Source of the DNA: Hallella colorans
Lineage (GTDB): Bacteria; Bacteroidota; Bacteroidia; Bacteroidales; Bacteroidaceae
NCBI RefSeq assembly: GCF_003096815.1
Contig: NZ_QENY01000006.1
Coordinates: 62,001 to 126,000 of the forward strand
Length of the DNA: 64,000 nucleotides
Reading direction: 5' to 3'
Under the pieces are notes generated by a model. It had not been told where the DNA came from and did no database searches. It worked only from the letters and a program-made list of their open reading frames with translations. Made by a program: the position numbers and the translations under genes. Below, one piece after another: positions 7,724 to 10,612 of this stretch; position 1 is the stretch's first letter; each line of letters opens with the position of its first letter.

Positions 7724-7982
7724 ACCGATTTTTGTTAAGAAAGCACAAGTCTCTGTCTTCAAGCGCTTTGCCAAATTGTCATTTTTTGCCCATTTTTCCG
7801 CCCCCCTGCCTTGTCTTTTTGCAAAAAAGCTAAAAACAGAATGGTTTTATCCGTTTTTTTCAACGTTATTTTTTTATCCACGCTTTTGACGGAACAGCCA
7901 CATCAAGCACACAGACAACCGCCCCGTGAGCATAGTGCCAATTTTTGGCGGCGGAAAGAGCGGCTTTCCATATAGGATTTGC

Positions 7983-7990
7983 TATCTTTG
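7983..7990 (+). promoter_or_regulatory. -7 promoter element directly before the ThiD-AraC start
   Basis: TATCTTTG ends four bases before the ATG at 7995. Transcription should start at or within a few bases of the start codon, so the mRNA would be leaderless or nearly so. No good -33 element is seen. Confidence 0.55.
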
Positions 7991-7994
7991 CACC

Positions 7995-9083
7995 ATGAAA
8001 CCAATGATTTCAGTGCTAAGCATCACCGGCTCCGACAACACGGGCGCGGCCGGCATACAGGCCGACATCAAGACCATCACGGCCCTTGGCGGCAACGCCT
8101 TGACAGCCATCACCACCATGACCGTGCAAGACAGCGGCGGCATCCGCAGCCTGCTCGACCTGCCGTGCGACATGGTTGTGGGACAAGTGAAGGCCATCGT
8201 CGAGGATCTTCATCCCCGTGCCGCCAAGGTAGGCATGGTGCGCGATGCCGCGACCATCCGCGCCCTGAGGCGTGAGATCATCGGATGTCCGCGGACTGTG
8301 CTCGTGCCTGGCATCGTCAGCTCGCGTGGCCAGCGGCTCCTCTCCGACGACGCTGTCGACGCGTGGCGGCGAGAGCTTGTTCCAGAGGCCACGCTTCTCA
8401 TCCTACGCTGCAATGAGGCCGAGCTGCTACTGGGACGTGCCATCCGTTCAGACGACGACATGACGGCGGCCGCCGAGGCACTGAAGGAGATGGGAGCCGA
8501 GGCCATTCTCCTGCGTGGCGGTCACCAGACGCAAGGCCGGCTCACCACCCTACTCTACGGAGCGGGCCGTCCGCAGTTTTTCACCTCGCAAAACACCGAG
8601 GGCTGGCAGCGTCACGGTGTGGGCGGTGTGCTATCGTCGGCCGTCGCCACCCGACTGGCCATGGGCGACGACATTGCCACGGCCATCCGATTAGCCCACG
8701 ACTATCTGCACTCGCAGGTGGTCTATGCCGTGGAGCCACACGGAGGAGGACTTCGGCCCGCCGACCTCTACAACCAGTACATGACGCTCATTGCGGCCCA
8801 CTACCGCACGGCCCACGGCGTGGCCTTCTACGCCGACCAGCTGGCCATCACGCCGAGATACCTCGCCCGTATCACCTCGCAGGTGGTGGGCAAGTCGCCC
8901 AAACAAATCATCGACGACTACCTGATGACGGAAGCCGAGAGCCTGTTGGGCGCTACGAGACTGTCGGTCAGCGAGGTGGCCTATCGGTTGGGATTCTCCT
9001 CCCCGGCCATGTTCAGCAAGTTTTTCGGCGCGAACGCCAATTGTCCGCCCAACGCATACCGGAACAAATTGGGCGACTTGTGA
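7995..9083 (+). CDS. ThiD-like pseudokinase fused to AraC-type DNA-binding domain; candidate B6 regulator
   Basis: A 362-residue fusion. Residues 1-255 follow the HMP/HMP-P kinase (ThiD) fold: TGSDNTGAAGIQADIKT near the start, KVGM at 78-81, RGGH at 184-187. Residues about 265-362 are an AraC-type double helix-turn-helix (LAITPRYLARITSQVVGKSP, then VSEVAYRLGFSSPAMFSKFF). Key kinase residues are lost. The ThiD anion-hole motif HGTGC reads HGVGG at 207-211, removing the threonine and the catalytic cysteine, and the usual DPVM motif reads VPGI at 104-107. It therefore probably senses a pyrimidine or B6 vitamer rather than phosphorylating it. pdxST follows after its own terminator and promoter. 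The start at 7995 is preferred over an in-frame GTG at 7926 because the promoter sits between them. Confidence 0.82.
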   Translation: MKPMISVLSITGSDNTGAAGIQADIKTITALGGNALTAITTMTVQDSGGIRSLLDLPCDMVVGQVKAIVEDLHPRAAKVGMVRDAATIRALRREIIGCPRTVLVPGIVSSRGQRLLSDDAVDAWRRELVPEATLLILRCNEAELLLGRAIRSDDDMTAAAEALKEMGAEAILLRGGHQTQGRLTTLLYGAGRPQFFTSQNTEGWQRHGVGGVLSSAVATRLAMGDDIATAIRLAHDYLHSQVVYAVEPHGGGLRPADLYNQYMTLIAAHYRTAHGVAFYADQLAITPRYLARITSQVVGKSPKQIIDDYLMTEAESLLGATRLSVSEVAYRLGFSSPAMFSKFFGANANCPPNAYRNKLGDL

Positions 9084-9106
9084 TTTTCGGAACAATATTT
9101 TACGAT

Positions 9107-9138
9107 AAGGGAACGACCGTTATGCCGTTCCTTTTTTT
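9107..9138 (+). terminator. Intrinsic terminator after the ThiD-AraC gene
   Basis: The arms AGGGAACG and CGTTCCTT are followed by a T tract. The loop and right arm contain CCGTT twice, eight bases apart, just upstream of the pdxS promoter, so the site could also be an operator (inference). Confidence 0.7.
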
Positions 9139-9143
9139 ATGTT

Positions 9144-9151
9144 TAGCTTTG
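9144..9151 (+). promoter_or_regulatory. -7 promoter element for pdxST
   Basis: TAGCTTTG matches TAnnTTTG and lies 31 bases before the pdxS ATG, directly behind the preceding terminator. No clear -33 element is present, which would fit an activator-dependent promoter. Confidence 0.55.
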
Positions 9152-9182
9152 CGGACAAACCATAAATTAATACAATCATACA

Positions 9183-10055
9183 ATGGAAGATAGAACAACT
9201 CTTAACCGCAACTTGGCACAGATGCTCAAAGGCGGTGTGATCATGGACGTGACAACCCCCGAGCAAGCGCGCATAGCCGAAGACGCTGGCGCATGCGCCG
9301 TAATGGCTTTAGAGCGCATCCCAGCAGACATCAGGGCAGCTGGTGGCGTGTCGCGCATGAGCGACCCACACATGATCAAAGGTATCCAAGAGGCCGTCAG
9401 CATACCCGTGATGGCTAAATGCCGCATAGGCCATTTCGTGGAGGCGCAGATATTGCAAGCCATCGAGATAGACTACATAGACGAGAGCGAGGTGCTCTCT
9501 CCGGCCGACGATGTTTACCATATAGACAAACGCCAATTCAGCGTACCATTCGTATGTGGCGCCAAGGATCTCGGCGAGGCCCTGAGACGCATTAGCGAAG
9601 GCGCGACCATGATACGCACCAAGGGCGAGCCCGGCACCGGAGACGTCATTCAGGCCGTGCGCCACATGCGCATGATGCAAAGCGAAATACGCCGCATCAC
9701 CTCACTTAACCACGATGAACTGTACGAGACTGCCAAGACGCTGCGCGTGCCGTTTGAATTGGTGGAATATGTACATGACAACGGCAAGTTGCCAGTGGTC
9801 AATTTTGCCGCCGGAGGCGTGGCCACCCCCGCCGACGCAGCCTTGATGATGCAACTTGGAGCCGAGGGCGTGTTCGTGGGCAGCGGCATATTCAAGAGCG
9901 GTGATCCCGAGAAACGAGCTCGCGCCATCGTGCAGGCCGTGACAAACTATGACAATGCCAAGATGCTGGCCGAGCTGAGCGAGAACCTCGGTGAGGCTAT
10001 GGTGGGCATCAACGAGAGCGAGATACAAATACTGATGGCCGAGAGAGGAAAATGA
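9183..10055 (+). CDS. pdxS: Pyridoxal 5'-phosphate synthase, synthase subunit PdxS
   Basis: A 290-residue full-length PdxS (Pdx1) TIM barrel. It condenses ribose 5-phosphate, glyceraldehyde 3-phosphate and ammonia to pyridoxal 5'-phosphate, with PdxT supplying ammonia. [17 protein letters not shown] carries Asp22. Lys79 in MAKCRIGH is the first Schiff-base lysine and Lys147 in [10 protein letters not shown] the second. The C-terminal phosphate-binding region is intact ([14 protein letters not shown]). pdxT overlaps by four bases (ATGA), so the subunits are co-translated in the cytoplasm. Confidence 0.97.
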
Positions 10056-10612
10056 GAATAGCCATTTTAGCACTGCAAGGAGCGTTTGCCGAACACCAGC
10101 AAACGCTTCAGAAAATGGGCATCGAGACCTTTTTGGTAAGAAACCTGTCAGACTGGCGGCAACCCAAGGACGGACTTGTGATACCGGGGGGCGAGAGCAC
10201 CACGATGATGAGGCTTGTTCGCGACTTGGGGTTGTACGAGCCCATCAGGCAGGACATCATCGACGGCCTGCCCACGTTTGGCACTTGCGCTGGCCTTATC
10301 ATGCTTGATGGCGAGCATTTGGGCACCATGAGCATAGACGTGAGACGCAACGCCTATGGCCGACAGCTCGGCAGCTTCGTGACAAGAGCCGAGATGAGAG
10401 GCGTGGGCGAAGTGTCGATGGTCTTCATCAGAGCACCATATATAAACAAGGTGGGCAAAGATTGCGAGGTCTTGGCCATCGTAGACGGACACATCGTAGC
10501 CGCGCGACAGGGCGACCAGTTAGTCACGTCGTTTCATCCCGAGTTAAGTGATGAGACCGCCGTGCACCAATATTTCATCGACATGTGCCAAGATCGAGCC
10601 AAACGCAAATAG
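10052..10612 (+). CDS. pdxT: Pyridoxal 5'-phosphate synthase, glutaminase subunit PdxT
   Basis: A 186-residue class I glutamine amidotransferase that hydrolyses glutamine and channels ammonia to PdxS. The catalytic Cys79 is in [10 protein letters not shown], and His162 and Glu164 are in SFHPEL. The oxyanion motif PGGEST is near residue 45. Length and motif order match PdxT closely. It overlaps pdxS by four bases. Confidence 0.97.

Follow-up and report, generated by a model that had tools for sequence, protein, structure and literature searches.

The window, as we call the whole 64,000-nucleotide stretch of Hallella colorans DNA analyzed here, contains on its forward strand a gene (positions 7995 to 9083) for a 362-amino-acid fusion of a ThiD-like pseudokinase and an AraC-type regulator, which was delineated by its open reading frame, Pfam matches, and homologues. 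It is directly followed, on the same strand, by pdxS (9183 to 10055; SOR_SNZ), encoding the PLP synthase subunit, and pdxT (10052 to 10612; SNO), encoding the glutaminase subunit, and these coordinates agree with the arrangement described in an earlier reading made from the sequence alone (the sequence-only reading). The start codon of the fusion is the ATG at 7995, and the mechanical ORF call opens at a GTG at 7926. Ending 4 nt before the ATG is a sequence resembling a -7 box, TATCTTTG (TAnnTTTG; 7983 to 7990, forward strand), which is kept at loci L057 and L058; we take TAnnTTTG to be the -7-box consensus. This spacing (window positions 7983 to 7997) suggests that the regulator mRNA may be leaderless or nearly so. 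The G+C content of the regulator gene is 63.3% (78.2% at third positions), compared with 45.9% for the window and 56.6% for pdxS.

The ThiD-fold sensor domain occupies residues 1 to 248 (7995 to 8738, forward strand) on the basis of PF08543, an AF2 model, and Foldseek; the Phos_pyr_kin (PF08543) match covers residues 14 to 248 with 194.1 bits against a cutoff of 27. A full AraC helix-turn-helix had also been proposed, and Pfam places an AraC-type HTH_18 domain at residues 279 to 357 (8829 to 9065, forward strand; 71.3 bits, cutoff of 33.6), with the AF2 model showing helices in 276 to 360. The model of the full-length form has a mean pLDDT of 91.8 and 8g1h (E value of 8.7e-23) as its best Foldseek match, and the one short form modelled has a pLDDT of 92.3 and 7r8y (6.8e-17) as its best solved relative. 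In both cases, the solved structures closest to the model are those of ThiD proteins or reconstructed ancestors; pyridoxal kinases of S. aureus and B. subtilis also figure among the solved relatives. When scored with TIGR00097 (NCBIfam), the window protein reaches 193.4 bits, below the curated cutoff of 204.95, and three homologues reach 152.7, 126.0, and 169.4 bits. Among five proteins scanned, with the window protein counted twice, none was matched by a curated NCBIfam model over the whole length of the fusion.

An alignment of 102 fusions (33 full-length and 69 short forms) with 28 ThiD controls from the same order revealed columns that separate the two groups, with S111, T136, P137, N138, N205, T209, C211, and T212 lost in the fusions and T11, I50, D55, P74, and R83 gained. 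From ThiD structures, we take the lost positions to serve catalysis and nucleotide binding. In the window protein, HGVGG (residues 207 to 211; 8613 to 8627, forward strand) is found in place of the catalytic HGTGC, as the sequence-only reading had noted alongside the retained ThiD fold motifs, and its claim that the anion-hole Thr and catalytic Cys are gone turned out to be general: Cys211 and Thr209 occur in 0 of 102 fusions and together in 28 of 28 controls. Homologues with an intact GTGC, searched for as potential counterexamples, were thus not found among the 102. Column 211 is occupied by G (25), S (7), or A (1) in the full-length fusions and by N (65), G (3), or S (1) in the short forms. 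The TPNxxE (NXXE) motif of ThiD is replaced by ILRCNE in the window protein (residues 136 to 141; 8400 to 8417, forward strand), and column 138, that of the NXXE Asn, holds K (22) or R (11) in the 33 full-length fusions, Asn being found in 2 of the 102, both short forms. Likewise, the GGH Lys (Lys174) is absent from all 102 fusions and present in all 28 controls, and column 174 of the full-length fusions holds R (20), Q (10), or H (3). For columns 138 and 174, we presume the functional roles that the NXXE Asn and GGH Lys are given in ThiD. The reported VPGI in place of DPVM is present in the window, but the change from Asp to Val is not general, as 16 of the 33 full-length fusions and 41 of the 69 short ones still have Asp104 (the D of DPVM).

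Other positions are retained almost without exception. All 102 fusions have G12, D14, G20, D24, G80, H207, and G208, 101 have Gln22, and 99 have Gln45 (as do 23 of 28 controls), and we take the kept positions to line the HMP/pyridoxal pocket, again from ThiD structures. Thr11 is found in 94 of 102 fusions and Ala11 in 28 of 28 controls, and Arg83 in 95 of 102 fusions and His83 in 17 of 28 controls; both Thr11 and Arg83 presumably stand near residues of the substrate pocket. By sequence, the fusion is predicted not to be a working kinase. It is very improbable that it is still an enzyme, phosphorylating B6 vitamers or HMP with an altered set of residues and bearing an HTH in addition: the full-length forms have kept the fold as a whole and the loop's HG, but none of the 102 fusions has the Cys, Thr, or GGH Lys, 100 of them lack the NXXE Asn, a part of the kinase domain is missing in most linked members (see below), and a second, intact ThiD (G000:C24; 37% identical to the fusion, with HGTGC) is encoded elsewhere in the genome.

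Within a sample of 200 genomes of one genus, short fusions of 258 to 341 amino acids make up 62 of the 79 fusions linked to pdxST. The short linked forms lack approximately 53 residues of what we presume to be the nucleotide lobe, and the presumed substrate-pocket half is conserved. Across the alignment, the stretch matching residues 137 to 206 has a mean length of 16.6 residues in the 69 short forms, compared with 70 in the 33 full-length forms. In a quick tree, which contains one misextracted row (L184) with a false long branch, a single branch splits the fusions from the ThiD controls (SH-aLRT of 100), and the short forms share one clade with seven full-length forms (support of 95); the residue counts quoted here use the reextracted L184. 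Since the short forms and these seven full-length forms fall into one clade, the simplest history is that catalysis was lost first and that one or two excisions followed. One genome (G018) has two fusions, a full-length one (L207) beside pdxST and a short one (L198) approximately 57 kb away.

PdxS (PF01680) is found in 93 of the 200 genomes, G249 having only a fragment, and 107 are PdxS negative. The fusion is present in 87 of the 93 PdxS-positive genomes and in 0 of 72 PdxS-negative genomes searched (Fisher P of 3e-40, uncorrected for kinship; the counts come from genomes of one genus and are phylogenetically nonindependent, so that independence is overstated). Among the matches listed to approximately 4e-26 for a 45-sequence profile in these 72 of the 107 PdxS-negative genomes, none is a fusion; those listed are ThiD-like proteins, AraC-only proteins, and one N-terminal fragment, and the fusions themselves score 1e-126 and 1e-147 in the same search. 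The fragment (G175:C1:184106-184321) is ThiD-like, covers profile positions 4 to 75, and is possibly a relic of the regulator left after pdxST loss. Six PdxS-positive genomes have no fusion, one of them having PdxS only as a fragment, and no neighboring regulator was found among 10 chosen flanking ORFs at five loci of these genomes.

Seventy-nine of the 92 pdxS regions fetched, some of which end at contig ends, contain the fusion, always within 3.4 kb of pdxS, and the two are codirectional in 76 cases, convergent in 2, and divergent in 1. In eight more genomes (G208, G292, G273, G311, G165, G232, G190, and G265), the fusion lies away from pdxS. Beyond the genus, a sample of 393 genomes of the order yielded the fusion in nine genomes besides that of the window, belonging to six families, and pdxS is within 1.5 kb in seven of them, the exceptions being G501 and G564. 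In a 395-genome phylum sample, no fusion was found outside the order at E values of ≤1e-62; this search and that of the order scored the best five candidates per genome, so that misses are possible. Three phylum matches besides the window's own genome end by model position 207 and are ThiD-like. In a separate homologue search, the matches in G101 and G109 covered the C-terminal part only. All six named genome records inspected (Prevotella sp. S7-1-8, with 99% identity, three other Prevotella assemblies, Bacteroidales bacterium KA00344, and Hallella bergensis) have pdxS and pdxT downstream of the fusion. The linkage seen in the window therefore recurs in other genomes (79/92 genus regions, 7/9 order genomes, 6/6 named records). 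That the fusion is a nonfunctional relic standing beside pdxST by chance is hardly credible: its catalytic motifs are degenerate, but the family as a whole conserves the reading frame, the HTH, and several of the residues common to ThiD proteins, and the fusion is kept in 87 of 93 PdxS-positive genomes along with a conserved promoter element.

This element lies in the gap before pdxS, where a block from 9083 to 9116 stands out as conserved when six close relatives are aligned. Within it, alignment and motif search place a predicted operator, CAATATTTTACGATAAGGGAACGA (9093 to 9116, forward strand; the block itself starts at 9083), and alignment and spacing place the predicted -7 box of the pdxS promoter, TAGCTTTG (9144 to 9151, forward strand). 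The candidate operator can be written as TTTnnCn-N4-nGGAAC, approximately 28 nt before the -7 box. In this block, GGAAC occurs twice, at 9089 to 9093 and 9110 to 9114, 21 bp apart. Half-sites of AraC/XylS regulators are direct repeats approximately 21 bp apart. In operators of the TTTGTCA type, no first GGAAC repeat was apparent by eye.

An unsupervised motif search before the regulator gene in 69 genomes returned gTTTT.tTTGTCAAaA..gGAACa (log likelihood of 656; shuffles, 77.5 and 87.2), and a search before pdxS at 23 loci of the full-length type returned CAAt.TTTT.CcATataGGAACgg (201; shuffles, 74.3 and 77.5); we read these as two versions of one putative element. For the TTTGTCA version, 60 of 79 regulator upstream regions, the majority being training data, exceed the 99% shuffle level, and TnnnTTTG follows 27 to 28 nt downstream in 56 of these 60 sites, compared with 1.4% in shuffles. 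With 2-fold cross-validation, 56 of 79 regulator upstream regions remain above the 99% shuffle score, 54 of these 56 sites having TnnnTTTG at 26 to 29 nt. For the 19 regulator genes without a site, nine genomes of the full-length type have it before pdxS (eight of the nine being training data), and it is also found before pdxS in seven genomes of the short type, G193 (weakly), G204, G209, G166, G168, G279, and G301, whose pdxS upstream regions were not training data. No site above threshold was found at either gene in G153, G164, and G217. Two genomes, G171 and G248 (L104 and L105), have tandem units resembling an operator and promoter, ACAAAATGAAGTTCTGTTTGGCAAAAA...TCTTTGCA, before the short regulator gene.

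The element can also be traced to pdxS genes that are not linked to the fusion. When the regions before unlinked pdxS are scored with a matrix from 10 linked loci, G292, G208, G273, and G232 exceed the 99% shuffle level, their -7 box standing at 27 nt, and G311 and G190 exceed the 95% level; this matrix was built on sites that an earlier, wider model had located in those 10 loci and is thus only partly independent. An unsupervised search on the same 10 loci missed the operator and settled on a T run and the -7 box. The unlinked pdxS of G265 has a site with the other version of the motif (score of 22.4), which was not training data, and no motif was found before pdxS in G165 or at L201, both of which have the fusion. 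In the five fusionless PdxS-positive genomes examined, no site at the operator/-7 spacing was found before pdxS: the site of G285, one of the five, barely exceeds the threshold of the linked-locus matrix (7.6 versus 6.8) and has no -7 box at that distance, and in the first motif scoring, none of the five upstream regions, including that of G285, passed.

The same stretch also contains a hairpin followed by a T run, which is terminator-like (9107 to 9134, forward strand) and whose left arm overlaps the GGAAC of the operator. In the window, the hairpin has a folding energy of -9.8 kcal/mol and a z score of -2.24, 8 of 200 shuffles folding as well, and the z scores at L057 and L059 are -5.42 and -4.28. 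In an alignment inspected by eye, changes in the arms keep the pairing in relatives; a fourth stretch folded, L140, which was badly chosen, showed no hairpin. The sequence-only reading had described a terminator containing two CCGTT copies. The hairpin is borne out by these values, but CCGTT is not a conserved motif or operator: its copies are the loop and right arm of the hairpin and change in relatives, and they were rejected as a candidate operator. A terminator alone was also rejected as an explanation of the conserved intergenic DNA, as GGAAC and the spacing are kept where there is no matching right arm and no upstream regulator gene. By eye, a GGGAAC...GTTCCC hairpin with a T run (window positions 9107 to 9138) recurs before the regulator gene in G329, G277, G209, G343, and G290, and several promoters have it again at their operator, also where the upstream genes differ. 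The fixed GGAAC seems to double as operator core and terminator arm.

With regard to the size of the putative regulon, a search for the operator followed after 29 nt by the -7 box gives one perfect match in the window's own genome, at pdxS, and four operator matches with three mismatches were counted there, compared with five in a reversed control. In 27 relatives, the TTTGTCA version is matched perfectly in 19, once in each and always at the regulator promoter, and 26 weaker matches lie outside the regulator and pdxS promoters, compared with 19 in the reversed control. A wider regulon was rejected on the basis of these near-control counts, and a few further targets may exist. Since there is a single perfect site at the pdxS or regulator promoter, the regulon most likely consists of pdxST, plus the regulator where it shares the operon.

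In light of these data, the explanation that we consider best and, as a whole, likely is that the fusion is a dedicated regulator of pdxST, probably an activator and responsive to a B6 vitamer, which takes the place of PdxR. Its parts carry different weights. At the sequence level, the alignments point to lost catalytic residues, a part of the kinase domain deleted in most members found, and a conserved other half, and the genome comparisons point to pdxS linkage and co-occurrence and to a conserved promoter element at fixed spacing; that the fusion regulates pdxST seems highly probable. We propose that the fusion goes back to a ThiD-family kinase that, once catalytically inactive, took on ligand sensing and was coupled to an AraC-type DNA-binding domain and that this one-component regulator would bind the predicted operator just upstream of the pdxS -33 region or, where regulator and pdxST form an operon, upstream of their common promoter. 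Transcription of pdxST would probably be activated under shortage of a B6 vitamer, most likely PLP.

Activation, rather than repression, seems the more probable mode of action, if with somewhat less assurance. Sites of AraC-type activators are usually just upstream of the -33 region. It is unlikely that the protein is instead a repressor or dual regulator bound to DNA together with PLP; the response to ligand is unreadable from sequence and the operator is close to the core promoter, but the site stands upstream of -33 at a fixed spacing (56 of 60 sites above threshold) and not over the -7 box. For an activator, a ligand in the former substrate pocket would turn activation off, by analogy with PLP and PdxR elsewhere. 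According to PMC5320631, which deals with MocR regulators, apo-PdxR activates pdxST and PLP acts as an antiactivator in several species, and according to PMC9997740, ThiD2/PdxK enzymes phosphorylate pyridoxal. No GntR/MocR match was found in the window's genome by a search that was positive in 12 of 14 control genomes, and hence there appears to be no MocR/PdxR protein there. From the behavior of PdxR, the absence of a MocR regulator, and the action of ThiD2 on pyridoxal, we read the fusion as a PdxR analogue that would sense a B6 vitamer. The ligand is probably such a vitamer. An alternative that we regard as quite improbable is that the same regulator binds HMP or HMP-P and ties B6 synthesis to thiamine status: the sensor domain is a relative of ThiD and 99 of the 102 fusions retain Gln45, a residue that 23 of the 28 ThiD controls have, but the linkage, the co-occurrence, and the operator all concern pdxST, the one perfect operator of the genome being at pdxS, and the ThiD family also phosphorylates pyridoxal (PMC9997740), so that descent does not favor HMP. 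The idea of the sequence-only reading that a sensor analogous to PdxR was built from a dead kinase thus gains support from the missing catalytic Cys (0 of 102), the pdxST linkage, and the candidate operator.

To a broader proposal we would give about even chances, namely, that the fusions form a new B6-sensing family in which the kinase decayed by steps, with catalysis and then the nucleotide lobe being lost, to a vitamin-only "half-kinase" that senses the end product PLP, whose phosphate could be held by Thr11 and Arg83, and replaces PdxR in Prevotella-like Bacteroidales. PdxST-using Prevotella are common in the gut, rumen, and mouth. A regulator as read here would explain how B6 synthesis is controlled in PdxST-using Prevotella without a MocR regulator and would provide a natural progression from an active to a dead kinase and on to a truncated ligand-binding domain, complete with a predicted operator; simple assays could address both the ligand and the regulatory logic. 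A search of the open-licence literature, with subscription journals mostly outside its scope, brought up no account of a regulator that combines ThiD and AraC domains; the passages considered of PMC10434189 and PMC6522883 contain nothing on such a fusion, and PMC6593275 has PdxR among the regulons that it used.

That an enzyme fold can be turned into a sensor is already known in general terms. In the ThiN-domain repressors of archaea, which respond to thiamine, a vitamin pathway enzyme domain is reused in transcription factors, but the enzyme, the vitamin, the HTH, and the domain of life all differ from those of the fusion. With the ThiD/ThiD2 (PdxK) kinases (COG0351, TIGR00097), the fusion has the fold in common; in contrast to them, it lacks the catalytic Cys, Thr, and Lys and the NXXE Asn (the last in 100 of 102), scores below the TIGR00097 cutoff, carries an HTH, and is without part of the domain in most members found. 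AraC/XylS regulators have a usual N-terminal sensor. Like them, the fusion has a C-terminal HTH_18 domain and a predicted operator that borders the -33 region on its upstream side, but its sensor is a pseudokinase. PdxR, a MocR protein with a GntR winged helix and an aminotransferase-like domain, resembles the fusion in that an enzyme fold is combined with a DNA-binding domain next to pdxST and in that a genomic link to pdxST goes together with a shared promoter element there; however, its sensor and DNA-binding domain are unrelated to those of the fusion, which contains neither a GntR nor an aminotransferase domain.
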